A stretch of 25,673 nt of DNA from a virus: IMG/VR virus record IMGVR_UViG_3300003322_000287, positions 1 to 25,673 of that record, one strand, 5' to 3'. Within the stretch, counting starts at the first letter, position 1. Each line of letters starts with the position of its first letter. Below the pieces are notes generated by a model. That model saw nothing but the letters and a program-made list of their open reading frames with translations. It did not search any database and was not told the origin of the DNA. The translations under genes were made by a program, and so were the position numbers. Positions 1 to 22,552 of this stretch are shown here, in pieces.

Positions 1-707
1 GCTTCGAAGTCACGCATGAATTCTTTTTGTTCAAAGTTCTCCGCGTTGTAGTACCACGACTCGTTGTCGACATAAGTCTTTTGGGACATTACCCCTCGTT
101 CAATCTTGAAGCCGCGACGATTGATCTCTGTTACGTTGTAATCGTATCCAGGCAGATATGAACGAACTCCACCAGAACCACTAGAACCTCTTGCGAAACC
201 TGTACCGATGTGACCGATTTTGTGGTTAGTGTTGATGAGTGATGTCGACCAGTTGCTACCATCGTATTGAGTAACTGTCATGGTTTGGAAACCACCAGAG
301 TTACTTACTGATGCAACGCGACCGTTGGCACCTGTATTCGCAACACGGAACTCATCCCCCACAATGAAATAGCCGAGGTCGTTTACACCATCTGCTGTGA
401 TATCGAGAGTAAGAGTTGCTGTTGCGGTTGTACCGTTAGAAATCGCTGTGATCGTTGCACTCTTACGAGTACGATCCATGATCTGCCAAGAATAAGTGTC
501 TGATTCAATTGTACCACTCACACCGGCAATTTTCTCAGTCATATCGGTCAGATAGTACTGAGGAAACTTGATAATCAGAGCCGGAAGTATCTCGGGTTTT
601 TCAAGACCCGCTGAAAAGATATGTCCGGACAAGAGCTGCTGATCGCGAGCTTGTGTACCTGTACCCGAGATGGAACTCGGGACGTTGGTTCCTGGAATTA
701 GAGCCAT
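1..707 (-). CDS. putative major capsid protein, N-terminal 235 aa (runs off window)
   Basis: The reading frame opens at an ATG at 705-707 (MALIPGTNVPSS...) and stays open to the window edge, so the C-terminus is missing. It was read by hand. The visible part has a short polar N-terminus, then a Thr/Gly/Ser-rich beta-type region (about residues 80-190) and a mixed stretch ending in KTYVDNESWYYNAENFEQKE. No motif identifies it by itself. The call rests on position: it follows the terminase, portal and scaffold-like genes in the order usual for P22-like and crAss-like heads. It has no Shine-Dalgarno sequence; its A-rich leader is preceded by a 9-bp stem. It probably shares the sigma-54-type promoter upstream of the scaffold gene. 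It could instead be another virion protein. Confidence 0.6.
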   Translation of the reverse strand, partial: MALIPGTNVPSSISGTGTQARDQQLLSGHIFSAGLEKPEILPALIIKFPQYYLTDMTEKIAGVSGTIESDTYSWQIMDRTRKSATITAISNGTTATATLTLDITADGVNDLGYFIVGDEFRVANTGANGRVASVSNSGGFQTMTVTQYDGSNWSTSLINTNHKIGHIGTGFARGSSGSGGVRSYLPGYDYNVTEINRRGFKIERGVMSQKTYVDNESWYYNAENFEQKEFMRDFE

Positions 708-782: not shown

Positions 783-1940
783 TTAGAGACTACCAGGAGT
801 TTTGAGAGCACCAACATGTGCTGCGATTTTCTCGGCAGCTGATTTTGGTTTCGTTTCGGTTATAGGTGACGGAGGTATTGGAGGAGTGTTCAGTTGAACG
901 TTTTGTGCTTTAGAAAGAAGATCTTTCTGACCTTTTACGTAACCTTGTTTAGACTGATGACTTGCTATTTGTTCTCCCCATTCTGCCAGTGCGATAGTTC
1001 TTGAGAGTTTGGCTGCATCGACCCCACTGAGATCAATTTTTCCAAAGTGCTTCTCGATCAACTTACCGTTCCTGATACCTTCGTAGATGTAGTCACTGTG
1101 TTTTGCTTCGAGTGTTATACCTACTTTTTCGGGAGATAGAGTTTTAGATAGGTTTCTTGAGGCTTCCGCGAGGTCTCTGTTGAATTTAGATTTCCTCTCT
1201 TCTGCTTGGCGGGCAATCTCTTGTCTACGAAGTTGTGAGCGTTGGATGAGGTTTTGTTTCATCTGTTCGCCTTGGATTCTTTTAATCGAATCTGGAACTT
1301 CTGCGAGGGCCGCGTCTGCTGCTTCTTTGTTGTAGGAAGGTGTTCCGAATCCGTGTATCCGATCAATTTCTTGTTCGAACAGTTGGACGGGATCAATCTT
1401 GCTGTAGTCAACCATTGAAGCCGCCAGGTGACTCTTCCAGTCGCCTTTTTCTTTCGCTATCTTAAAAATCTCTTTGAATTCGTCGTCCAAATCCGAAACG
1501 AAAGAAGTTTGTGCTTCTTCCAATTCCTTGATTTTCGCTTGTTGTTTTGTAAAGGTTTGTACCAGATCGTCTTTAGACTTCACTCCATCTAGTTTCAAAG
1601 CACTGCTGAGATTTTCGATGGTTAGTGGTTCGTCGACAGGAGCAGTCGAAGTACTGAATAAATCCTTGTCCCATGCTTCTACGATAGTCTCTTGTGGAGA
1701 TGGTTCGGTAGATAATTCTGTTTTCGGGTCGGGTGTAACCTGGGTTACTGGTTGTTGAGCCACTGGCTCTTTCTCAGTTTTTGCAGGTTGCTCGACCGTT
1801 TGAACGGGTGACGGGGTAGGAGTTTCTGTATTTTGAGGGACTGCTGCGGAAGGTGTTGCACCTTGTGCGGCAGCCTTTTCTTTCAAGTTTTTGGCAAATG
1901 CGGCAAGACCGGTTGCCGCGTTCTGATCTAAATCTGACAT
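783..1940 (-). CDS. scaffold-like head assembly protein
   Basis: This 385-aa protein has an Ala/Pro/Gln/Thr-rich, probably disordered N-terminus (about residues 1-85) and long charged helices: roughly 125-175 (KELEEAQTSFVSDLDDEFKE) and 215-270 (RRQEIARQAEERKSKFNRDL). A second Pro-rich segment (about 350-365) precedes a short basic C-terminal helix. Low-complexity helical proteins ending in a basic helix between portal and capsid genes are commonly scaffolds, where the C-terminal helix binds the capsid subunit. The family was not recognised directly, so the role is inferred from position and composition. It is the first gene after the predicted sigma-54 site at 1979-1996; the leader is about 29 nt and has no Shine-Dalgarno sequence. 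Confidence 0.65.
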   Translation of the reverse strand: MSDLDQNAATGLAAFAKNLKEKAAAQGATPSAAVPQNTETPTPSPVQTVEQPAKTEKEPVAQQPVTQVTPDPKTELSTEPSPQETIVEAWDKDLFSTSTAPVDEPLTIENLSSALKLDGVKSKDDLVQTFTKQQAKIKELEEAQTSFVSDLDDEFKEIFKIAKEKGDWKSHLAASMVDYSKIDPVQLFEQEIDRIHGFGTPSYNKEAADAALAEVPDSIKRIQGEQMKQNLIQRSQLRRQEIARQAEERKSKFNRDLAEASRNLSKTLSPEKVGITLEAKHSDYIYEGIRNGKLIEKHFGKIDLSGVDAAKLSRTIALAEWGEQIASHQSKQGYVKGQKDLLSKAQNVQLNTPPIPPSPITETKPKSAAEKIAAHVGALKTPGSL

Positions 1941-1978: not shown

Positions 1979-1996
1979 TAGCAATAATCGTGCCAA
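1979..1996 (-). promoter_or_regulatory. sigma-54 (RpoN) type -24/-12 promoter, site 1
   Basis: Read on the minus strand the site is TTTGGCACGATTATTGCTA. It matches the sigma-54 consensus TGGCACG-N4-TTGCW at every defined position, with GG (1994-1993) and GC (1982-1981) exactly 12 bp apart. The predicted start is near 1969, about 29 nt before the scaffold-like ATG. The -24 element lies in the 60-bp gap after the portal stop. The 17-bp core is identical to site 2 at 8737-8754. Confidence 0.75.
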
Positions 1997-2027
1997 ACTC
2001 TAAGGTTTCGCTAAAGTCGCTAGAGTT
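1996..2027. repeat. inverted repeat immediately upstream of sigma-54 site 1
   Basis: AACTCTA (1996-2002) is the exact reverse complement of TAGAGTT (2021-2027). The 18-nt spacer itself contains GCG/CGC half-repeats. The centre is about -42 relative to the predicted start near 1969. It overlaps the last codons of the portal gene, so part of the pattern may be constrained by coding. It could be an activator site or a hairpin ending the upstream transcript. Confidence 0.45.
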
Positions 2028-4165
2028 TTTATCTTAGAATCGTTCAATTTGACTTTACCGGTCAAGGCTGTCTTATCGAGATTACCCTTATTTTTGAGTT
2101 GTTGCAGACCCATCTGACCCTGGATATTCTGCTGCTGCATCGCCGCTTGGTCCTGAGATAACTTCTGTTGAAGTTGAGCATCACGCTCTTGTTCAGCCTG
2201 TTGCATTTGTGCTTCAAGCATCTTGCGAACTGTGACTTTACGTTGAAGTTTACGTAGTGCCTGGCGAATGTCTGGATCGAGTAGAATGTCGAGAGCGTCT
2301 GTTGCTTCGAGTTGCTGTGCCTGAACCATCATTACGATGAAGTTTTCGAATTTAGACCTGTCTTGGAGAAGAGGAGGTAAGCTTTCTACCACAACACCTA
2401 CTGATTCGAGATCGATATCGATATTGTCTCGTAAGAAATCCACACCCGCAGATCCGATAATCGGTGCAAAAACTTCTCTGTCGGCCATAGCAATCCTCAT
2501 CAGTTTAGCCTGCTGAGTCATCACGCGTGACCAAAATCTCTCAAAACCAGCAAAATATGGTTTGGTGGTCATCGTCGATTGGAAGATAGCGGCATCGGTC
2601 ACTCCAACCGCTTGCGAAGGAGCCTGAACAACACCCTGCCTTTCCGCAGAACTACCCAAGATAATATTCTCTTGTTGGTCAAGAAAGCTCATTATCTCGA
2701 TATATTCCCTGATACCTTGACTTATCGATAAATCGATTTCTTTGAGCACGTTCATACCACCTTGCATCATCTGGTACTCTTTGGTGTTGACCGCAACGAT
2801 ACCAGCGGTCTTCAAGAACGAGGCTACTTTATCTAGGTTCCAGCCCTCCGGCATGAGAGCCATGTCAAAGACAAACCCTTTAGATCCGGCCCTGTTCATG
2901 GCAAGCTGAAGGTTGTACATCGCCATATCTTTGAGAAGGTCGAGTGCAACAACTTGCTCCACCTTAGACACCGACTGACCACCCATGTAGTTCGGCACCC
3001 AGCATGTATAAGGTGGTAGCGTTTTTTCGAGAGTGTCGAGATCACGAGGTTGGTTAGGAAGTTCTCCCCATTCTCTGACAATCTCTCCTCCGATCATGGT
3101 GATGCCTCTCCAACACTCCATTTTAGAAGTCATGAGGTTGGCTTTCTTTGGTACCTTATCTTCGTCCTTGAGTTCTTGCAGGTGCTCTGTGCCGTACTTC
3201 TCTTTGATCTCACTCTTGTACTTGCGAACTTTGAAGTCTCGCCAGGTCGCCCTGAGCACCATCACACGAGGCACGTTGTCGATATTCCTGAACCAGCCTA
3301 ACGTGCTATTGTCTATACAATCGAAGAAGTTAGCACCATTACCGGCTTGATACAAGCCAGCGTTCATGTTGGTGTAAATGTTGTAGTTGTTCTGAGCCTT
3401 CTCTAATTCTTCGTTAGAAAGGTTGTAGCGTTCGGCTGCTTCGGCCAAACCCATATAATAGGCTTCCAGGAAATAGGTACTATCGGACAGTTCGTCGTCT
3501 GTGGAGTTGGGGTCCCACACAAAGCAGAGTGGCTCTACACGTACTGGTCGAGGAATTCCGCGAACGATCTCATTCCTAACAAAACAAGCGTTCTGTATCC
3601 ATACATCTTTAAACGTTGCGTTCCTGAGTCGATCAACATTATTGCGTTTCGCGAGATCCTTTAATCCCATTTCATAAATGATCTCTAACTTGTCTTTGTA
3701 TTTGAGATCAGCCCACTCGTCTAAAGACAAATCGGTCTGGGGAATGTTGGGATCTTGTAATGGTAAGCCTGATCGTTGCTCTGCGAACTGTGCTGCGTCT
3801 TGAAGTCTTCGTTGTACACGCAATGTTTCTTTTGCTTCATGCTTACGCGAGACTGCTTCTTTCGATAACGCTCTTACTCTTAACTCCCATCCTCGTGATT
3901 CGAGTTCACCAACTAAGTTCTCAATCTTGGATTTTAAATTTGAGATACTTACATACATGGCTGGTAAATCGGTGCCATCTTGTGCCTTCTGTATAAAGTT
4001 AGCCATATCACCAGTACTTCCCTGGTTGAAATACTTCACAGCCTCTTGCTTCACGCGATACTTCAGGGCATAGGTGTTGGTGAGACTATATTTAGCAAGA
4101 GCCTTGCCCCATGCGAGATGATACTCGCGGTCTTTGCGTTGTGTCGAAAGTGGTGGCAAATTCAT
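2000..4165 (-). CDS. portal protein
   Basis: At 721 aa this is close in length to P22-type portals (about 725 aa). The portal forms the dodecameric ring at the unique capsid vertex through which the terminase threads DNA. The N-terminal part (about residues 70-100, MYVSISNLKSKIENLVGELE) resembles the start of the portal core in P22/crAss-like phages. The long C-terminal region (about 640-700) is a Gln-rich coiled coil (EAQMQQAEQERDAQLQQKLS), typical of the portal barrel and tail. It sits between the terminase side and the scaffold gene, as expected. Its ATG shares an ATGA overlap with the end of the upstream GIY-YIG gene, so translation is probably coupled through that mobile gene. Confidence 0.85.
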   Translation of the reverse strand: MNLPPLSTQRKDREYHLAWGKALAKYSLTNTYALKYRVKQEAVKYFNQGSTGDMANFIQKAQDGTDLPAMYVSISNLKSKIENLVGELESRGWELRVRALSKEAVSRKHEAKETLRVQRRLQDAAQFAEQRSGLPLQDPNIPQTDLSLDEWADLKYKDKLEIIYEMGLKDLAKRNNVDRLRNATFKDVWIQNACFVRNEIVRGIPRPVRVEPLCFVWDPNSTDDELSDSTYFLEAYYMGLAEAAERYNLSNEELEKAQNNYNIYTNMNAGLYQAGNGANFFDCIDNSTLGWFRNIDNVPRVMVLRATWRDFKVRKYKSEIKEKYGTEHLQELKDEDKVPKKANLMTSKMECWRGITMIGGEIVREWGELPNQPRDLDTLEKTLPPYTCWVPNYMGGQSVSKVEQVVALDLLKDMAMYNLQLAMNRAGSKGFVFDMALMPEGWNLDKVASFLKTAGIVAVNTKEYQMMQGGMNVLKEIDLSISQGIREYIEIMSFLDQQENIILGSSAERQGVVQAPSQAVGVTDAAIFQSTMTTKPYFAGFERFWSRVMTQQAKLMRIAMADREVFAPIIGSAGVDFLRDNIDIDLESVGVVVESLPPLLQDRSKFENFIVMMVQAQQLEATDALDILLDPDIRQALRKLQRKVTVRKMLEAQMQQAEQERDAQLQQKLSQDQAAMQQQNIQGQMGLQQLKNKGNLDKTALTGKVKLNDSKIKTLATLAKP

Positions 4166-4980
4166 ATTTGTTCTCTGTTTAGTTTTTCGTAATCCTCCTT
4201 ATACATCCATTTAAAGCCCCCTGTGGTCAATCTTCTCTTACTTCCTCTGCATATTTCTGTTATATGTGCCCCTATTAATCCGAGAGTCGTGCTCGCTTCT
4301 TTGATAAAATTCCATTCTCTTACGTACACGCCGGTTTTATTTAATTGCACCACAGGTCTTGCATTTCCGTTGTTCATACCACGATTAGCGTTTCCAATTT
4401 TATCTCTGGTCTCTTGTTTTACAATTTTTCCTATATTGGCTAATCGTGTTTTCTCCACCGCCTCCCTGTTTTGTTTTCTACCTCTTAATGCTTGTGCTCT
4501 TTTCAAAATTGTTTCTGGTGATTGTTTCCGCCCTCTCTGTGCTTCGCTTATTTTACGACGAGTTTCCTCTGTTACTTCGTGTTTGGGAGGACCATCTCGT
4601 TCATATCTTTTCTTTGCTGACTCACTCATTTTCTTTCTTGATACCTCACCCATTTTACCGTGTGATCCACCACCTTCTCTAAGATTCATGAGTTTATAAC
4701 CCATCAATCGATAATGAGCCATATAGAAACACTCGGCGTAATCCAGATGTTCTTGTGTGTATGAATCTTCTTCGAATTGAAGAAGTATTTCTAGTTTGTG
4801 ATTATCAACACCATATTTATTGAGAGAACTAAATATGCCAGATTGACCTTTGGTGTGTAGTCCTTTATAATTTGCTACTCTTTGATACAGATTTACTGTT
4901 TGTCCAATGTAGACTTTGTTGGACGGGCTTGTAATTTTATAGATACAGATTATTGGTATTCCTTTGGTGATCGTTATCAT
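4162..4980 (-). CDS. GIY-YIG homing endonuclease with NUMOD-type DNA-binding repeats
   Basis: A GIY-YIG nuclease domain occupies about residues 8-95, with IYKI near the start and KVYIGQT about ten residues later. Basic NUMOD3-like repeats follow (about 115-200: RKKMSESAKKR, RRKISEAQRGRK). A C-terminal NUMOD1/IENR1-like unit (about 205-265) reads PVVQLNKTGVYVREWNFIKE ... TTGGFKWMYKED. Such enzymes cut intron- or gene-free alleles and spread by recombination. It stands alone between the terminase and portal genes, with no sign of an intron. A 64-bp gap separates it from the terminase stop, and its stop codon overlaps the portal start (ATGA, 4162-4165). It is related to the second copy at 17329-17979. 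Confidence 0.88.
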   Translation of the reverse strand: MITITKGIPIICIYKITSPSNKVYIGQTVNLYQRVANYKGLHTKGQSGIFSSLNKYGVDNHKLEILLQFEEDSYTQEHLDYAECFYMAHYRLMGYKLMNLREGGGSHGKMGEVSRKKMSESAKKRYERDGPPKHEVTEETRRKISEAQRGRKQSPETILKRAQALRGRKQNREAVEKTRLANIGKIVKQETRDKIGNANRGMNNGNARPVVQLNKTGVYVREWNFIKEASTTLGLIGAHITEICRGSKRRLTTGGFKWMYKEDYEKLNREQI

Positions 4981-5044
4981 TTATATTAGTGAGGATATAG
5001 AAAGTTCAAAAACGGGATGGAGTGAGGTCAAAACAATATAATTT

Positions 5045-6955
5045 TCATCTATTGAAAAGTGGATTTGTTGATTTGACAGTTGGACGAAGAGTAGAGCCGT
5101 TATTAATCAGTTCTATTCGCCCACCAACATTGCGGTACTGTGTTGTTGGATTCTTCGATGCTTCAGCATCATGATGACTAGCTACTCTATGATCGGCTTG
5201 AAGAAGCAAAAGACACCAACCAACAGCTACGGCCAAGTCATCGTCCGCGTGATCCATTCCGAACTTACCGCATTCTTCTATGAATCGTAGTGAAGGAATT
5301 AAATGAGGATAATTCTCCCAATAAGCGTCTAACAGACCTATCATCTGTTGTTTTCTGGCGGGGGTCATCTTCTCTCCAACTTCCATCTTAAATCCACCTT
5401 GTACTAATGTTGGTGACTTGGGAGCGAGAGATAGAAGTTTTGCGTATTCTTTGTTTTGATGGTTCTCGAAATAATCTTTAGCTCGATAGCCTCCACGATT
5501 CATTTCTATAAGCACCTGCGTGTTGTTATACCACTGAAGAAGCATCGCCAACTGTTCGTAATAATCACCTAATTTTTTCGGACGGTCTGTGTATTCGGCA
5601 ACTATTTTTGGTCCTTCTAAACCGAAGGGACGTGCCATTATTGCAGTGCTAAGATTTGAATTATCTCTTGACTTTGTGGCGTCATCGTCATCTGCCGGGT
5701 CGAAGCTCGCGCAGTACCCGTTTTTGATTAGTCGCGGTCTTTCATAAACAATTATCTTACCGTCAGGATCTGGTACGAAATCAGGAGAACCACCTATCTT
5801 AGGACGCATCCAACCCTTAACTTGAAGAGGGGGATTGTCTTGAAGTTCTTTATATCTATTCGAGCGAGTGATCGGATTGCCAACACCAACACCATTCACA
5901 ATCAGAAAAGCATCTTCTTCGGTGATAGGCCACTTCTGGCGGAATTTGTTGTATACGATAGAACTCATCCCCTCTTTGCGTCGGCGTTCATAGATGATAG
6001 ATCGAATACCTTCTTCAATCATATCGTTTCCAAAAGAATCTAGATGCATGCACGAGAATCCCCAAAGTGCGTATCTTCTCAATCCGTACAAATGCGCTTT
6101 TGTCCAGAACTCCATTAGCCCCTTTCCTGCTTTACCTGTCTCTCCCATCGTGCCGAATATGAAGGGGGTGCCGACACGAGATCCGTCGTTGTCCATCAAA
6201 CACTCTTCCGCATTAGACCACAGTGACATTAATTCTTCTTGCTCACCGGCTTCATCGATAACAAGTTTAGCGTAAGCATTACCCGCATGACCTGTTGGTG
6301 TTGGCGCAACAGAAATGATTGAAGACATATTACCTATGTGTTTCTTCTGTGATTCTACCCACCTACCAAACACCATCGCGTCGCGACGATCTATGTGAAC
6401 ATAAGCACGGAGAAAAGGAGACACGTTCCGGTGTATATACTTATGCTTAGAGAATAAATTCCTAGAGTCTGTTTCACTTTTGGAATTCATTCCTATTTCG
6501 TATTCTTTGTGAAATGTTGCATCGTATACATTGTCTGCTGAGAAATCCCAACTAGCTCCTATTTGACGACGCTTAATATTCACTAATCCTTCTCCTGGTG
6601 TATCCAATACTTCCTGCTTAACCCTTGCGAAATCCATTTGAGTCGCTCGAAAGTCAGGTCTGATTTTTCCTCTAGTTTTATGTCTTATCCAACAATGGTT
6701 GAAATAGAAATAATACCTTCCAGGCATGCCGTCATATCCTTCTCGACACCTACGTATTTCTTCCAATTCCCAATCTAACCGCGCCCTATGATCGTCCCCA
6801 AATTCGGGTATTTCGATGTGCGTGTATTTCTTATTAACCATGAACGGATTAGTCGCCATCACTCGCGCCGTTTCATACTGCACCTTTGCTTCGAGTTCTT
6901 CGATGTAATCGTTCTTCGAAATGATACTAAACTTGTCGTCCTTATCCTTAGACAT
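5045..6955 (-). CDS. terL: terminase large subunit
   Basis: This 636-aa protein is the DNA-packaging motor. The ATPase domain has a Walker A-like loop KRRQIGASW (128-136), a Walker B LVIDEAGE (231-238) and a coupling-motif candidate GTMGE (268-272). The nuclease domain shows ASFDPADDDD (416-425), VLIEMNRGGY (481-490) and MDHADDDLAVAVGW (567-580), which carry the acidic residues expected of the RNase H-like fold. The aromatic stretch RYYFYFNHCWIRH (80-92) recalls crAss-like terminases. The ATG overlaps the end of the DUF616 gene by 8 nt. No small-terminase gene was recognised nearby. Confidence 0.95.
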   Translation of the reverse strand: MSKDKDDKFSIISKNDYIEELEAKVQYETARVMATNPFMVNKKYTHIEIPEFGDDHRARLDWELEEIRRCREGYDGMPGRYYFYFNHCWIRHKTRGKIRPDFRATQMDFARVKQEVLDTPGEGLVNIKRRQIGASWDFSADNVYDATFHKEYEIGMNSKSETDSRNLFSKHKYIHRNVSPFLRAYVHIDRRDAMVFGRWVESQKKHIGNMSSIISVAPTPTGHAGNAYAKLVIDEAGEQEELMSLWSNAEECLMDNDGSRVGTPFIFGTMGETGKAGKGLMEFWTKAHLYGLRRYALWGFSCMHLDSFGNDMIEEGIRSIIYERRRKEGMSSIVYNKFRQKWPITEEDAFLIVNGVGVGNPITRSNRYKELQDNPPLQVKGWMRPKIGGSPDFVPDPDGKIIVYERPRLIKNGYCASFDPADDDDATKSRDNSNLSTAIMARPFGLEGPKIVAEYTDRPKKLGDYYEQLAMLLQWYNNTQVLIEMNRGGYRAKDYFENHQNKEYAKLLSLAPKSPTLVQGGFKMEVGEKMTPARKQQMIGLLDAYWENYPHLIPSLRFIEECGKFGMDHADDDLAVAVGWCLLLLQADHRVASHHDAEASKNPTTQYRNVGGRIELINNGSTLRPTVKSTNPLFNR

Positions 6956-7847
6956 TGATATACTCTATAAATTTTCCTCGATATATCTTCACCTGTTTCA
7001 ACATCTCGCTTGGTTCCGGTAGATAGTCACTTAGCCAACGCTGGTATAGCATCGACTCTCCCCTTACAATTAGATGTGGTGTGTAAGGATGTTTTTCAAT
7101 TTCAGTTACTGCATCGGGGAAACCTCTCCAATTAATCCAACTATCTTTTGGTGCAACTTTTACTTCTTCTTTTGTCGAACAATTGATGATTTTGGAAGTA
7201 GGGATTTTTCGCGGGTTGTGAAGACGAGGTCCAAAGAAACGTTCGACGTGACCGTGTGGTATCTCTGTGATTTTTGTGCTCGACCAGAACGCGGCGAAAG
7301 GTGCTGATATCTGATCTCTCCAACTACCTTTGTCTACTTCGTTCCACCAAATTTTGTCAAAGCTCTTGGTATCTCCCCTTCTAACAATTACTCCACATCG
7401 ATACAGTCCTCCCTCGATTGGATACTTCAACGCATGATACCTCTCAATCTGCTTGTTAACTACTTCTTTGCTATCTAACTTTTTATCGAGAACAATTCTT
7501 GCTTCTGCGTAAACACAGTTTCGTTGGGGATGAGCGGTCATGTAAACAGTGCCGCCTTCAGGAAGCCCCACTATAAACTCGTTTAAATCTCCCTCTATCT
7601 GGTACGTGCAGTCGATGTAGATATTAGTATCGTACTGTTTCGTATCATATCGTATTTTGTAATACCGACTGAGTTTTTTGGAATCAGTGGCTTTCGCGGG
7701 GTCCGGCTTTACTATTGTCCAAGCGCCAGGATTATCAATGATCTGATCGGTTATTGCGACGTAGGACCAGCCTTCTGTGATTATTTTTGGCTGTTTTAGT
7801 GTGTCGCCCTCACCAATCAGTACGGTAAAGCAGATATTTCTATTCAA
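6948..7847 (-). CDS. DUF616 (TOD1/MUCI70-type) glycosyltransferase-like protein
   Basis: This 299-aa protein matches the DUF616 layout. It has an N-terminal strand (NICFTVLIGEGD), WSYVAITD (27-34), WTIVKP, KLSRYYKI (58-65), YIDCTYQI (77-84) at the place of the usual YIDGN motif, and AHPQRNCVYAEA (105-116). DUF616 proteins are nucleotide-sugar glycosyltransferase-like, mostly of unknown acceptor. No ATG is available before residue 103, so the start is probably TTG (7847); an ATT at 7854-7856 is the alternative. It lies between two small late genes, after a terminator-like hairpin, and overlaps the terminase start, so it belongs to the head operon. A role in decorating virion or host glycans is inference. 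Confidence 0.7.
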   Translation of the reverse strand: MNRNICFTVLIGEGDTLKQPKIITEGWSYVAITDQIIDNPGAWTIVKPDPAKATDSKKLSRYYKIRYDTKQYDTNIYIDCTYQIEGDLNEFIVGLPEGGTVYMTAHPQRNCVYAEARIVLDKKLDSKEVVNKQIERYHALKYPIEGGLYRCGVIVRRGDTKSFDKIWWNEVDKGSWRDQISAPFAAFWSSTKITEIPHGHVERFFGPRLHNPRKIPTSKIINCSTKEEVKVAPKDSWINWRGFPDAVTEIEKHPYTPHLIVRGESMLYQRWLSDYLPEPSEMLKQVKIYRGKFIEYINV

Positions 7848-7928: not shown

Positions 7929-8177
7929 TTAAGATCCAGTAATCGACGTTGCAGAAAGCGCCGTCATGAAATCAGCAAGTTCTTCCTGGATAGTGATAGT
8001 CCAACCGTCTGATGTTTGAATGACAGTGTCTTCTGTCCCATCGACGAGTGCAACAGCGCTAGTACCCCACAGGATAATACCTACTGTTTTGGGGGTGTCT
8101 GATTTAGTGAGAGTTGTCTTACCTTGCGGTGTCACGATCTGTATCGCGGTCGCAGTAAATACGCTTTTTTGTGCCAA
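7929..8177 (-). CDS. small hypothetical protein in head module
   Basis: The 82-aa product is Thr/Ser/Ala-rich, predicted mostly beta, without a signal peptide or Cys. It was not recognised. There is no in-frame ATG near the start; the best start is TTG at 8177 (reading MAQKSVF), with ATT and ATA codons just upstream and an in-frame stop before them. It lies 24 nt after the 75-aa gene and is followed by a terminator-like hairpin, which suits a small abundant virion protein such as a decoration or head-fibre component. That role is inference. Confidence 0.6.
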   Translation of the reverse strand: MAQKSVFTATAIQIVTPQGKTTLTKSDTPKTVGIILWGTSAVALVDGTEDTVIQTSDGWTITIQEELADFMTALSATSITGS

Positions 8178-8201: not shown

Positions 8202-8429
8202 TTATGCTTCTTTGAATTCAACGTAGTATTCTTTACCGGCCTCGAACTGTTCGCTAGAGAATTGTCCGAGTTCTATCTTACCTGTCGGAGTTGCTGCGAA
8301 GAAACTCTTGTTTTCATCACTACCAGTCATTACAGGATTAAGAGATGCGGTATAGAGGAATCGTCCGGTACCGTCCCAATGTTTAGTTTTGGTGACAGAG
8401 GTACATTGAAATTTTGCGATTGTTGACAT
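8202..8429 (-). CDS. small hypothetical protein in head module
   Basis: The 75-aa product starts at an ATG (MSTIAKFQCTSVTK) and has aromatic/charged beta-type composition ending in EAGKEYYVEFKEA. It was not recognised. It is the first protein gene after the long structured leader that begins at the sigma-54-type site near 8740. It is followed closely by the 82-aa gene, so the two probably form a pair expressed strongly late. A minor capsid or decoration role is possible but unproven. Confidence 0.65.
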   Translation of the reverse strand: MSTIAKFQCTSVTKTKHWDGTGRFLYTASLNPVMTGSDENKSFFAATPTGKIELGQFSSEQFEAGKEYYVEFKEA

Positions 8430-8530: not shown

Positions 8531-8606
8531 GTCCCCGGGCTGGATTCGAACCAGCGTTCTAAAATTTATGAGACTTTCGAGATTGACCCCACTTCTCCAC
8601 CGCGCG
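8531..8606 (-). tRNA. tRNA-Met-like (CAT anticodon) with defective acceptor stem
   Basis: Read on the minus strand, a full cloverleaf body is visible. It has TG at positions 8-9, a D-stem GAGA/TCTC with an 11-nt loop containing GGGG, and an anticodon stem AAAGT/ATTTT around loop CTCATAA (anticodon CAT). A 5-nt variable region and a T-arm GCTGG-TTCGAAT-CCAGC complete it. The acceptor is wrong: CGCGCGG against CCGGGGA pairs only at four of seven positions. C1:A72 and A11:U24 are initiator-like features, but the A/U-rich anticodon stem is not. CCA is not encoded. It may be a decayed tRNA, a tRNA with edited ends, or a tRNA-like processing signal. It lies inside the leader downstream of sigma-54 site 2. 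Confidence 0.6.
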
Positions 8607-8613
8607 ATATAAG

Positions 8614-8736: not shown

Positions 8737-8754
8737 CAGCAATAATCGTGCCAA
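8737..8754 (-). promoter_or_regulatory. sigma-54 (RpoN) type -24/-12 promoter, site 2
   Basis: Minus strand TTTGGCACGATTATTGCTG matches TGGCACG-N4-TTGCW, with GG at 8752-8751 and GC at 8740-8739, exactly 12 bp apart. The predicted start is near 8727, where the RNA would begin with the GTCTCTTAGAGAC hairpin. It directs transcription through the tRNA-like leader into the two small late genes and the head module. The core is identical to site 1. Confidence 0.8.
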
Positions 8755-8755
8755 A

Positions 8756-8771
8756 TGTTTCACGTGGAACC
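8756..8771. promoter_or_regulatory. parS-like palindrome upstream of sigma-54 site 2
   Basis: TGTTTCACGTGGAACC matches 14 of 16 bases of the canonical bacterial parS sequence (TGTTTCACGTGAAACA). The inner GTTTCACGTGGAAC is a near-perfect inverted repeat. Its centre is about -37 from the predicted start, 2 bp from the -24 element. It may bind the promoter's activator or repressor; binding by host ParB/Noc-type proteins is a second possibility. It lies just past the stop of the 40-aa gene and before AACCTTTTT, also seen upstream of site 3. Confidence 0.45.
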
Positions 8772-8774
8772 TTT

Positions 8775-8897
8775 TTAGATAAGTGTTAGTAGTTGCTTAA
8801 TCTTCTCCTCTATTCGATCTCTAATATCGGGTGAAAGTTCTTTACTGGCGGCTTCACTGAGGTAGAGAATTGCTTCGGTTATTTCTAGTGTTGTCAT
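8775..8897 (-). CDS. small hypothetical protein (40 aa)
   Basis: The protein begins MTTLEITEAILYLSEAASKE and ends EKIKQLLTLI, an acidic amphipathic helix pair. The ATG overlaps the TGA of the glycosyltransferase gene (ATGA, 8894-8897), the arrangement used throughout this phage, which is the main support that it is translated. The stop at 8775-8777 ends the operon just before the parS-like palindrome and the next promoter. The function is unknown. Confidence 0.6.
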   Translation of the reverse strand: MTTLEITEAILYLSEAASKELSPDIRDRIEEKIKQLLTLI

Positions 8898-11050
8898 GAT
8901 AAAATTCTATGATGTTTAAGTATGTTTTCGTAAAGTTCAGGATGGACATAGTCGAGTTCCCCCGTTAGAATCTTGTGTCTGCTATAGACTATGATGTTGT
9001 TGCAATACCAGATATCTATGTTTTTGTTGTTGGATATCTTTTCGCGGAGGAGGGTGGATGGATAGAAACCTCTCTTTTCAAACTTCTCAGCCCACCAGGA
9101 AGCCCATTTTTCATTGTAGTGGTGAAGTCCCCCCTGACCAGGACACGCTGCGCTGAAGAGAATTAAACCCCCTGCGTGGTTGCAAAGAGTATCTACTAAA
9201 GTATCAGCATATCGTTCTTCCAGGTGTTCGGCTACTTCGACATTTATAACCAAATCAAACAATTGATGAGCGGGAAATGGTTTTCTGAGATCGTGATCTA
9301 TATAATTTTGGATTAGGAGTTTTTCGCGGGGTACGCCAAAATCTACACCAACCTTAGTAATCGTGTCTGGTAACACACTAAGCCATGCTCCCGTGTTACA
9401 TCCAAAATCAATCACCGATTCGACGTCCGTCAGATCGATGTGTTTGAATATTTCCTCAGCAGATCTACGTGAGTCAATGTCTTCACGGTACTGATCTGAA
9501 TAATCATTGTTCTTGTTTTTCCACTCCCATTTACTAACATATTCCAACAACTCTTCCTTCGACATTGCTTTGACTTTATCGTATTCTCCGGGATTATAAA
9601 AAGGATTTCTTGTTGAAGAGTTGATACCTATGTAATGATCGAAGTGATAAAGGTTTCCTGGAATTCGCGCTATCCTGTAGCCAAGTTTTTTGAAACGTTC
9701 GTAACGTTCCTTATCTTCAGGTCCGTAACTAATGAAGTTCTCATTCTCACCACCACCTTCAAAGAACTTCTGCTTGTTGAAAAATATTGCACCACCCACT
9801 GATGGGTTCTCCGGTGTGTCTACACCTTTACCTATTTTACGGAAAGGAAACAAGTCGTAGAGAGGAAAGATGTTTTTACGAAAGACGCGAGGTATTCGAG
9901 CAAAGAGATGACCGTACGGATACACCATGTCTGCGCGATTCTTCCTGAGTGCCTCAACAGCTTGCCAGATTTGTGCTGGTGGTAGAGCGACATCTACGTC
10001 GTAGTTGCAGATGATAGGGGTGTCCGCGAGTTCCGCCATCTTGTTGAGCATCCTGGTCCGATGGAAATGCTCCATATTGAAATGAACGTAATGGCACCAC
10101 TGTTTAAAGTGCTCGAACTTCTTATCGTCTCCTCTTTCACCGAGAATGATGTTCGTGGTGAATGCTTTCTGTAAAAGGCAAATAGAGAGTTCGGTATTCT
10201 CCATTCGGTCTTTATTATCATACATTACCGGCAAAGTAAATGTAACGTCTTGTAAGTTACACTTTGCGTCATCCAACGACTCCCACCTCTTCAGGTAGAA
10301 ATTGTGGTCACCTTCTTTCGCAAGAAGTCTACCAGCGAATAGTTTTGTTGGACGAATAACACGAGTGCCTTCTTTCTCTCCCAAAAACGCCGACCAAAAA
10401 CCAAACGTAGAATTCGCCAGGATGAAGTTATCACACAGTGAGGCGAGACACATCGCCTCTATATCCGTTTCTGTTTCTGGAAAGAATGCGTTTGGAAGAC
10501 AACCGAAATGAAACCTGCAATATTCTAAGTCGTCACTGATGAAGACAAGATTATATCGCTCGTAATCAAATGTCTGAAGAGCGTTGATGTAATAAGATGG
10601 CGAGAGAATGTGATAACCACCGTTCTTAATGTAATCACCGCGTCGAACGAAGATTGCTATTGTCTGCTGATCAAAAAGTCTGATGTGTTTCTCTTCAACT
10701 CCTAATTTAAAGAGCGAATGAAACGATAGTAATTCCTTAATGTCTTTTTCGTTCGGCCAATATTCGCTATGCTGAAAGTATCCGTCAATATCTGTAATCG
10801 TTTCTTCGCTCCACCACTTAGCGTCCTGGTGAATATCATAATGTCGATACGACTTCTCCTTATAAATGTTGGTTGTTTTGACATTTCCTTTAGGAAACTC
10901 GTTTTTGAAGTATTTGTGATAAGGCCATTCAGCAGGTATCCACCAATCAACACCGTACGTGTTCGCCATTGAATAGAGAAAGGCAATACCGAAAAGATTG
11001 TTTCCTAACCGAGGACCGTTTGGATCTGCTAGTTTGCTAAATTGCAGCAT
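8894..11050 (-). CDS. three-domain GT11-like / GT-A glycosyltransferase / SAM methyltransferase
   Basis: This 718-aa protein reads as three enzymes in one chain. Residues about 1-265 resemble GT11 alpha-1,2-fucosyltransferases: RLGNNLFG (14-21), FVRRGDY (134-140), SDD (172-174) and NSTFGFWSAFLG (213-224). Residues about 268-505 resemble a GT-A/galactosyltransferase C-domain: NYDVDV (349-354) as the DxD motif, VGGAIFF (418-424) and SYGPEDKERY (441-450). Residues about 525-690 are a Rossmann methyltransferase: VIDFGCNTGAW (546-556), D570, and VEVAEHLEE (604-612). Together they could build a methyl-capped glycan on virion proteins or on a host surface polymer; the acceptor is unknown. It overlaps the 67-aa gene by 14 nt and the 40-aa gene by ATGA. 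It is last but one of a long operon, beside head genes. Confidence 0.8.
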   Translation of the reverse strand: MLQFSKLADPNGPRLGNNLFGIAFLYSMANTYGVDWWIPAEWPYHKYFKNEFPKGNVKTTNIYKEKSYRHYDIHQDAKWWSEETITDIDGYFQHSEYWPNEKDIKELLSFHSLFKLGVEEKHIRLFDQQTIAIFVRRGDYIKNGGYHILSPSYYINALQTFDYERYNLVFISDDLEYCRFHFGCLPNAFFPETETDIEAMCLASLCDNFILANSTFGFWSAFLGEKEGTRVIRPTKLFAGRLLAKEGDHNFYLKRWESLDDAKCNLQDVTFTLPVMYDNKDRMENTELSICLLQKAFTTNIILGERGDDKKFEHFKQWCHYVHFNMEHFHRTRMLNKMAELADTPIICNYDVDVALPPAQIWQAVEALRKNRADMVYPYGHLFARIPRVFRKNIFPLYDLFPFRKIGKGVDTPENPSVGGAIFFNKQKFFEGGGENENFISYGPEDKERYERFKKLGYRIARIPGNLYHFDHYIGINSSTRNPFYNPGEYDKVKAMSKEELLEYVSKWEWKNKNNDYSDQYREDIDSRRSAEEIFKHIDLTDVESVIDFGCNTGAWLSVLPDTITKVGVDFGVPREKLLIQNYIDHDLRKPFPAHQLFDLVINVEVAEHLEERYADTLVDTLCNHAGGLILFSAACPGQGGLHHYNEKWASWWAEKFEKRGFYPSTLLREKISNNKNIDIWYCNNIIVYSRHKILTGELDYVHPELYENILKHHRILS

Positions 11051-14976: not shown

Positions 14977-15433
14977 TTCGTATGTCTTTTGCTTGTTCGA
15001 TATTTGATGTTGCCAGATTCCAGTATCGTCGAGCCTCGTGAAACAATAGTGTCAGAGCCGAATTGGTCTCCAAGACATCTCGATAAGCGTCGAATGTCGC
15101 TGTTAATTTGAGATCAAATGCTTTGTGATGATGTTCGAGATCAATAAGAACAAGATTACCTTCGTTTGCTGTTGAAGACGATTTCTCACTCAGTCTTATG
15201 AATTCGGATAACATTTTGTGTTTTCCTTCTTGTGCTGAAAGAGCAGAACCAATCGCAGCGAGATTATTAGCAGACGATTTAACATCGAATATGTACCAAG
15301 AAAGCGCATAGTTCATCTCTTCAAGAAACGAGCACGATTGGACGGTTTCTGCGATTGTCGATATTTCACCAAGATCACCGAGTAGTATACAAACTTCTTC
15401 AAGTAAAAGCGATGGAGAAGATCCTTTTGTCAT
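14957..15433 (-). CDS. helical hypothetical protein in the lysis-like cluster
   Basis: The start at 15433 (MTKGSSPSLLLEEVCILL) is set by an ATGA overlap with the 50-aa membrane-protein gene; the frame is open further upstream, but that part is basic, shadow-like sequence. The 158-aa product is almost entirely helical, with several Ala/Leu/Ser-rich stretches, no signal peptide and no clear membrane segment. No family was recognised. Its 3' end overlaps the spanin-like ATG by 20 nt. Confidence 0.6.
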   Translation of the reverse strand: MTKGSSPSLLLEEVCILLGDLGEISTIAETVQSCSFLEEMNYALSWYIFDVKSSANNLAAIGSALSAQEGKHKMLSEFIRLSEKSSSTANEGNLVLIDLEHHHKAFDLKLTATFDAYRDVLETNSALTLLFHEARRYWNLATSNIEQAKDIRNGGSKV

Positions 15434-15582
15434 ACAGCGTGCCCGATTACAAGTCCCAGCAGGAATGCGATGCCTGCTATCAGCCATTGACGCACTCTGA
15501 GTATTCCGACCGTTTGATCGAAGTCGAGATTTCTCCTGCAAAACTCGTCGAGAATGACTTCTATTGTTTCAATCTTTTCCAT
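15430..15582 (-). CDS. small single-span membrane protein (50 aa), holin candidate
   Basis: Read by hand: MEKIETIEVILDEFCRRNLD, a short linker, then a membrane helix (about residues 32-48, WLIAGIAFLLGLVIGHAV) at the C-terminus. The ATG overlaps the end of the secreted-protein gene by 14 nt and the TGA forms ATGA with the next gene, so it fits the operon exactly. Among secreted and spanin-like neighbours a holin or antiholin role is possible, but one C-terminal span is minimal evidence. Confidence 0.6.
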   Translation of the reverse strand: MEKIETIEVILDEFCRRNLDFDQTVGILRVRQWLIAGIAFLLGLVIGHAV

Positions 15583-15982
15583 TGTTGTGTTTCTTGTTGC
15601 AGATGTTTGTGGTCGACAGTGTTAGACTATGAGTCGCGTGAGGTGAATTATTTCTCACTGGTGTAACGAAAACTATGAAACCATTCTTCTCTCTAATCGC
15701 CATCGTGGTATATATGTCGCCGTTCACTTGGTTGACTAACATGAATGAGTTCTTTGAAAACTCAGACAAGGCTAGTGTGTCTGTGTCGCTAACTATCCCG
15801 AATCGACCATCACCGACCATCATTAACACTCGTTGTTTACCGCAAGAATATTTACCATTTGTTGTGACGGGTGATCTCTCCACCCACAGGTCAAGCTTCG
15901 CCGCTTGAAGTTGGGCGAAGCTGACCATAGGCAGGAACGAGAGTAAACCAAACAGGACGCAGAGACACAATATTTTCTTCAT
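15569..15982 (-). CDS. secreted hypothetical protein (137 aa)
   Basis: A classical signal peptide is visible (MKKILCLCVLFGLLSFLPMV then SFAQ, with likely cleavage after FA/Q near residue 23). The mature part is beta-rich (WVERSPVTTNGKYSCGKQRV ... YTTMAIREKNGFIVFVTP). The tail is Ser/Thr/Asn/His-rich. No enzyme motif is visible, so it is not an obvious endolysin. It is the first gene after the 640-bp structured region, probably first in its transcript, and overlaps the 50-aa membrane-protein gene by 14 nt. Confidence 0.65.
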   Translation of the reverse strand: MKKILCLCVLFGLLSFLPMVSFAQLQAAKLDLWVERSPVTTNGKYSCGKQRVLMMVGDGRFGIVSDTDTLALSEFSKNSFMLVNQVNGDIYTTMAIREKNGFIVFVTPVRNNSPHATHSLTLSTTNICNKKHNNGKD

Positions 15983-21868: not shown

Positions 21869-22411
21869 TTAATCTAAAAAGATATTCCCGAACTCGAATT
21901 CGTCGAGAGTGTTTGTAGTAATCGCTAAAGTATGGGGATTGACAACAAGTGTTGGCACTCTTCTGAAAGCGGCGTAGTCTAAGCAATTTTTGGTTCCCCC
22001 GTCAGATCCATCGTGCGCACCTAATACAAAATCCCCCTGACCCAACTGATCAACCATCCATTTGTTTCGTATTTGCATACAAGCAGGAGTGTAGGACGCG
22101 TCTGTTACGAGATAGGGAGTGCAAAGGGGATTTGATAGAATTTCCCTATAAAGTTTTTGTGATTTCGGTATCCATTTGTTTTCCTGGTTCAAACAGGGTA
22201 AAGCTGCCGTGAAAGATATTTTTAAATCTATGAAAAGAAGCGCTAAGAGTGTATCTATACCCAACGCCATTCCGGTTATTCCGTTTGTGACTTCTAGTTT
22301 AATAAGAATAGTCTTTAACCTATCCCTAAGCCGATTCATCTGGGGGCTAGTGAGATCGTAGTCTTTCCAGAGTTTGTCAGGTCTATGCCCTGTAATAGTT
22401 ACTTTTCTCAT
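21869..22411 (-). CDS. SLOG-fold DUF1273/YpsA-like protein
   Basis: The 180-aa protein begins VTITGHRPDKLW, with GHRP at 8-11. It has TGMALGID (46-53), RNKWMVD (115-121) and GGTKNCLDYA (138-147), the pattern of the DUF1273/YpsA branch of the SLOG superfamily. SLOG proteins bind nucleotides or nucleotide-derived ligands and include sensors in anti-phage systems; phage copies are common and their role is unknown. It is transcribed from sigma-54-type site 3 with an approximately 114-nt structured leader. It stands alone, followed by the gene-poor stretch. Confidence 0.8.
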   Translation of the reverse strand: MRKVTITGHRPDKLWKDYDLTSPQMNRLRDRLKTILIKLEVTNGITGMALGIDTLLALLFIDLKISFTAALPCLNQENKWIPKSQKLYREILSNPLCTPYLVTDASYTPACMQIRNKWMVDQLGQGDFVLGAHDGSDGGTKNCLDYAAFRRVPTLVVNPHTLAITTNTLDEFEFGNIFLD

Positions 22412-22534: not shown

Positions 22535-22552
22535 CAGCAAAAACCATGCCAA
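22535..22552 (-). promoter_or_regulatory. sigma-54 (RpoN) type -24/-12 promoter, site 3
   Basis: Minus strand TTGGCATGGTTTTTGCTG has GG at 22550-22549 and GC at 22538-22537, 12 bp apart. It differs from the consensus TGGCACG-N4-TTGCW at one position (TGGCATG). The T-rich spacer resembles strong sigma-54 sites. The predicted start is near 22525, upstream of the SLOG gene. Confidence 0.65.

Follow-up and report, generated by a model that had tools for sequence, protein, structure and literature searches.

What reads the short gap ahead of the scaffold and capsid genes of this virus, and what would have to switch it on? The gap lies in a 25.7-kb virus record (25,673 nucleotides, G000; this whole stretch of DNA is called the window below) that has no close phage in the database, and a sequence-only reading had proposed that a sigma-54 promoter there drives the head genes. 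The portal protein of the window is ~20-24% identical to the portals of crAss-like and Flavobacterium phages, and the gene order, terminase-portal-scaffold-capsid, is that found in these phages. The following genes bear on the question.

3..707, minus strand: major capsid protein, a fragment at the window end (phrog_13704, virion structural protein, E 1.8e-11)
783..1940, minus strand: scaffold candidate, 385 aa, the first gene after site 1, between portal and capsid
2000..4165, minus strand: portal protein (phrog_6547, E 8.8e-65)
5045..6955, minus strand: terminase large subunit (phrog_6681, E 4e-35)
6948..7847, minus strand: glycosyltransferase-like gene (phrog_26101, E 1.4e-23)
7929..8177, minus strand: small ORF, 82 aa, behind site 2, with orthologs in G001, G019 and G020 (39-43%)
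8202..8429, minus strand: small ORF, 75 aa (phrog_6978, unknown), 87% identical in G001
8531..8607, minus strand: tRNA-Met (CAT), downstream of site 2
21869..22411, minus strand: SLOG/YpsA-like gene, downstream of site 3 (phrog_289, E 6.6e-12; PF06908 below cut-off)

The capsid fragment is 91% identical to the 446-aa ortholog of G001, a 71-kb relative in which aligned DNA stretches are mostly 64-82% identical to the window. The scaffold candidate, which gave no match in PHROG and Pfam searches, has orthologs in relatives that are 21-74% identical. A homing endonuclease gene (4162-4980) is also located between terminase and portal, its G001 homolog being found elsewhere (51574-52311), and positions 8894-11050 encode a 718-aa phage protein in which two glycosyltransferase-like domains are combined with a methyltransferase domain.

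Three -24/-12 elements, all on the minus strand, were identified in the window, together with one further element adjacent to the second of them.

1980..1996, minus strand: site 1, -24/-12 element TTGGCACGATTATTGCT, spanning -27 to -11, ahead of the scaffold candidate and the capsid gene
1969, minus strand: predicted transcription start (+1) of site 1, inferred from sigma-54 geometry with -11 at 1980, without measurement
8738..8754, minus strand: site 2, -24/-12 element identical to site 1, ahead of tRNA-Met, the two small ORFs, glycosyltransferase, terminase and portal
8757..8770, no strand assigned: near-palindrome GTTCCACGTGAAAC, directly upstream of site 2, a candidate regulator-binding site
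22536..22552, minus strand: site 3, TTGGCATGGTTTTTGCT, 125 bp before the ORF at 21869-22411

Site 1 is located inside the 59 bp between the portal stop (2000) and the scaffold-candidate ATG (1940), which is, as had been claimed, the sole gap ahead of the scaffold and capsid genes. Its predicted +1, which is derived from geometry and coincides with the position 1969 proposed earlier, falls 29 nt before that ATG. The sequence and strand originally given for the site were correct, although the coordinate ranges were off by one base; likewise, the core does recur exactly, but at 8738-8755 and not at 8737-8754, the shared minus-strand string being 18 bp long (TTTGGCACGATTATTGCT, 1980-1997 and 8738-8755). 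The reported fit to the GG-GC consensus extends to all three window sites, each of which has GG at -25/-24 and GC at -13/-12; the C at -12 is, however, a feature of the window, the relatives mostly carrying T instead. Site 3 had been missed, and the same sequence is present at 66624-66640 in G001, where all three window sites recur at the same places. Around site 2, a 49-bp block is 94% identical in G001 while the rest of the gap has diverged, and the site-then-tRNA-Met layout is found in G001 and also in L077, where the tRNA-Met begins exactly at the predicted +1.

The near-palindrome beside site 2, GTTCCACGTGAAAC, which we take to resemble a parS sequence, is too close to the promoter core for a usual enhancer. 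The pattern GTTCCANGTGNAAN occurs once each in the window, G001 and G020, always at most 5 bp upstream of the site 2 17-mer.

The resemblance of these sites to sigma-54 promoters was assessed with a hand-made sigma-54 matrix, by which all three window sites reach at least 18 bits against a shuffle mean of 0.08, and with an independent matrix built from 42 E. coli ChIP-seq sites (PMC4591121), by which they score 21.3, 21.3 and 19.0 bits, with a p-value of 8e-6 for the site 1 gap. The consensus pattern with up to three mismatches matches the window three times against 0.49 expected, in line with the proposal that chance is unlikely. A chance origin of the sites was rejected on the mismatch-pattern counts, the shuffles and the gap p-values.

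A logo of 30 aligned phage sites shows GG at -25/-24, CACG at -23 to -20, TTG at -15 to -13, and A/T at -11 and -8, with G-24, G-13 and TT(-15/-14) at 97% and G-25 at 87%; GGCAC is strong, the stretch between the boxes is T-rich and little else is conserved. G-24, G-13, TT(-15/-14), GGCAC and the A/T at -8 agree with the sigma-54 consensus. In the relatives, position -12 is T in 55% and C in 30% of sites, and this drift to T is not typical of sigma-54 sites, although E. coli also has T at -12 in pspA, pspG and ygeW (TTGT; PMC4591121). When the phage and E. coli matrices are compared, the mean column correlation is 0.79 at offset 0 and at most 0.14 at other offsets, none of 20,000 permutations being as high, and matches almost disappear when the matrix is reversed. 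The spacing was also examined without pre-chosen sites: TGGCA-N6-TTG is found in 15 sense copies upstream of phage genes, against 0-4 at any other spacing and 2 antisense.

Portal, terminase and capsid scans yielded the relatives of the window (portal identity 34-89%), with G018, G019 and G020 recovered by the capsid-protein scan only. The portal-scaffold gap carries a -24/-12 site in all six relatives that cover it, as follows.

G001: identical to window site 1
G003/L076: TTGGCACGGTTTTTGTT
L077: ATGGCATAAATTTTGTA
G018/L230: TTGGCACGGTTTTTGTG
G019/L232: TTGGTACAATCTTTGTT
G020/L233: TTGGCACGGTTTTTGTT and, in tandem, ATGGCACGCTATTTGTT

By the E. coli matrix, the p-values for this gap range from 8e-6 to 5e-3 in seven genomes, of which the window and G001 are close kin and should be taken as one. 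A second site precedes the tRNA/small-ORF/terminase module in G001, L074, G003, L077, G018, G019 and G020; it is weak by the same matrix in L077 (p 0.07) and L074 (p 0.017), and for G003, where the interval had been set to enclose the site, the p-value is to be ignored. L234 has one site between terminase and portal. A strong G001 match at 29269 lies inside coding sequence and was left out of the counts. By comparison of sequences, this conservation shows the -24/-12 site to be under selection. The motif is absent from the gut crAss-like phages and the Flavobacterium phages Fpv1 and elemoE that were tested, and in viral contigs an extended motif pattern matched only two relatives already known.

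The exact 17-mer is more widespread, being found in 35 stretches of viral contigs; outside two relatives it lies in gene gaps at 28 of 34 places, a count in which some contigs are near-copies and gaps are defined by open reading frames. Of the contigs with the 17-mer, eighteen hold 36 exact consensus sites and no reversed-control site, and one contig of 302 kb has six exact consensus sites within 12 kb; possession of the 17-mer was the criterion by which the eighteen were selected, so that evidence comes only from their further sites. The 17-mer and its close variants were observed in gaps of phage contigs of up to 302 kb (L003-L037, L367-L396), some of them multi-copy on one strand. In some places (L021 1122-1191, L034 10973, L025 30, L026 6512) a TGCCAA-like inverted repeat (TTGGCA...TGCCAA) comes after the 17-mer, in some cases in tandem, and this arrangement may be a different element.

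Across the group, the sites are in sense orientation in gaps upstream of genes. In the two longest contigs, G001 and G019, strong gap sites occur on the structural-gene strand only, none being found on the strand of the DNA polymerase/replication module, and one G001 site lies 28 bp before the endolysin gene. Given these placements, the promoter class is probably a late one, its timing being inferred. G020 has seven strong gap sites ahead of genes, some of them outside the head module.

All 16 window genes and all 49 G001 genes lack a Shine-Dalgarno-like sequence, which points to a Bacteroidota host; the group probably infects Bacteroidota, an inference, as the host is unidentified and a search for it through a glycosyltransferase homolog found nothing. 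RpoN genes are common in Bacteroidota. In four Bacteroidota genomes (2.0 Mb), TGGCA-N6-TTG occurs 15 times in sense orientation upstream of genes against a mean of ~4 at other spacings, with a small antisense rise at N6 too (7), and host gaps contain close matches to the motif, such as GAGGCATGATTTTTGTA. Across whole Bacteroidota genomes the exact consensus is not enriched (3 in 12 genomes), nor is the consensus with one mismatch (107 against 106 in the control), so that the signal is seen only in upstream-restricted tests and the host-side evidence is modest. The sequence TTGGCACGATATTTTCT is present in a gene gap of three Bacteroidota genomes (L206, L220, L227), where it is a possible conserved host promoter, and this 17-mer occurs once in each of two further Bacteroidota genomes.

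Sigma-54 is inactive without an ATP-driven activator. It had been suggested that the late genes would depend on host physiology or on an activator encoded by the phage; the need for an activator stands, but for a phage-encoded one there is no support, as no sigma-54 activator (PF00158) was found in the phage contigs searched, which reach 73 kb and are fragments of genomes. No RpoN domain was found in the window, G001 or G002, which are likewise fragmentary records. With neither a phage-encoded activator nor a phage RpoN found in the contigs searched for each, the activation remains unexplained.

The proposal of a sigma-54-type promoter is thus supported by the matrix match, the fixed spacing, the conserved place before the head genes and a Bacteroidota-type host group in which RpoN is widespread. 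We consider it likely that the host sigma-54 holoenzyme drives the late genes and depends for its activation on an activator of the host or on a phage factor that has escaped recognition, although RpoN dependence is untested. Host RNA polymerase with host RpoN would form a closed complex on GG(-25/-24) and G[C/T](-13/-12), which an AAA+ activator, inferred to come from the host or to be a phage protein not recognised as such, would remodel to allow late-gene transcription; site 1 would serve scaffold, capsid and tail, and site 2 tRNA-Met, terminase and portal. The computations establish the motif, its spacing, orientation and conserved position, and in the contigs searched they reveal nothing recognisable as an RpoN, an activator or a T7-like polymerase of the phage; RpoN as the reader, the lateness of the genes and the identity of the activator are inferred from them.

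The chief rival reader, which remains live although we think it unlikely, is an ECF-like sigma factor present in the relatives: a phage protein of the sigma-70 family would guide the core polymerase of the host to these sites, whose likeness to -24/-12 promoters would have arisen by convergence. G001 (L060) encodes at 15112-15603 a protein that matches the PF07638 ECF sigma family above cut-off (23.1 bits), with homologs in G019 (68543-69037; 29%, E 9e-8) and G003 (~4880-5278; 26%, E 4e-6), and in both G001 and G019 the gene adjoins that for DNA polymerase. Its best Foldseek matches are ECF sigmas, which is only suggestive given a model of low confidence (pLDDT 61); moreover, some sites have GGAAC variants that look like ECF -35 boxes, and 'spacer' bases are conserved within each phage. 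The geometry nevertheless speaks against such a reader, as there is no conserved -10 at 16-17 bp past GGCAC, conservation stops at -11 except for the A/T at -8, and the invariant TTG 6 bp past GGCA matches no geometry of the sigma-70 family. Furthermore, the same pair is found with the same spacing in host upstream regions, and coincidence would have to account for the agreement with the E. coli sigma-54 matrix.

The repetition of the sequence in gaps and the near-palindrome beside site 2 would also be compatible with an operator, bound by a regulator of phage or host origin, in place of a promoter core. This is improbable, however, as the 17-mer has no conserved palindromic symmetry (sites with T at -12 lose GCA-N7-TGC) and is strand-specific, directed at the next gene and often 20-60 bp from its start codon. 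We give very little credence to an ordinary Bacteroidota housekeeping promoter (-33 TTTG, -7 TAnnTTTG) with an accidental resemblance: TTTG is common to both motifs, and boxes like TAnnTTTGC are found close to the equivalent genes of Fpv1 and elemoE, but TAnnTTTG is not gap-enriched (0.63 against 0.45 per kb in the window, 0.44 against 0.49 in G001) and the distance from GG to TTG is far too short for -33/-7. That promoter is disfavoured because its -33 and -7 elements are not seen at the sites and gap enrichment is lacking. It is equally hard to credit a promoter of a phage single-subunit RNA polymerase, which a long contiguous motif with an AT-rich stretch behind it might suggest; PF00940 was unmatched in the eight contigs tested, where no positive control matched either and absence is therefore unproven, and no DFDGD-type catalytic motif was found in a plausible RNA polymerase.

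For particle production the phages thus probably rely on a specialised sigma factor of the host, one requiring an ATP-driven activator that they do not visibly encode. More tentatively, and with somewhat less than even confidence, we propose that late expression throughout this lineage of phages starts at -24/-12 promoters although the phages themselves bring no AAA+ activator. The trigger would then be either an activator of the host that responds to infection or to envelope stress, or a phage protein, such as the ECF-like factor, that fires sigma-54-type promoters by some unidentified means. As sigma-54 requires an ATP-driven activator, the output of phage would, with virion genes under its control, be coupled to a stress or nutrient signal of the host. 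In that case, mutants in rpoN or in the activator should block particle formation after DNA replication, and the phages would supply ready-made reporters for the poorly studied sigma-54 of Bacteroidota. Among the papers returned by full-text searches of an open-access library, none describes a sigma-54 late promoter in a phage in its title or abstract.

Bacterial sigma-54 promoters such as E. coli pspA (TTGGCACGCAAATTGTA), hypA and glnA share with the phage sites the GG and G[C/T] elements and the spacing between them, TTGGCACG-N4-TTG[C/T]W, A/T at -8 and a short distance to the gene (PMC4591121). Unlike them, the phage sites head morphogenesis operons, prefer T at -12 in the relatives and have no nearby activator gene or established enhancer site. 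The crAss-like phages share with this group a related portal and the terminase-portal-head gene order, and for crAss001 the late genes are thought to depend on host RNA polymerase (PMC8375218); the motif of this group is nevertheless missing from the crAss-like gut phages tested and from Fpv1 and elemoE.

In phages such as T4 (gp55) and SPO1, the switch to late promoters is made by a phage sigma factor or activator. The phages described here use what appears to be a host sigma-54 class in place of a phage-specified -10 box, and an ECF-like phage sigma is present but does not suit the geometry of the motif. With switches of the T4/SPO1 type they likewise have in common one repeated class of promoter placed before the structural genes.
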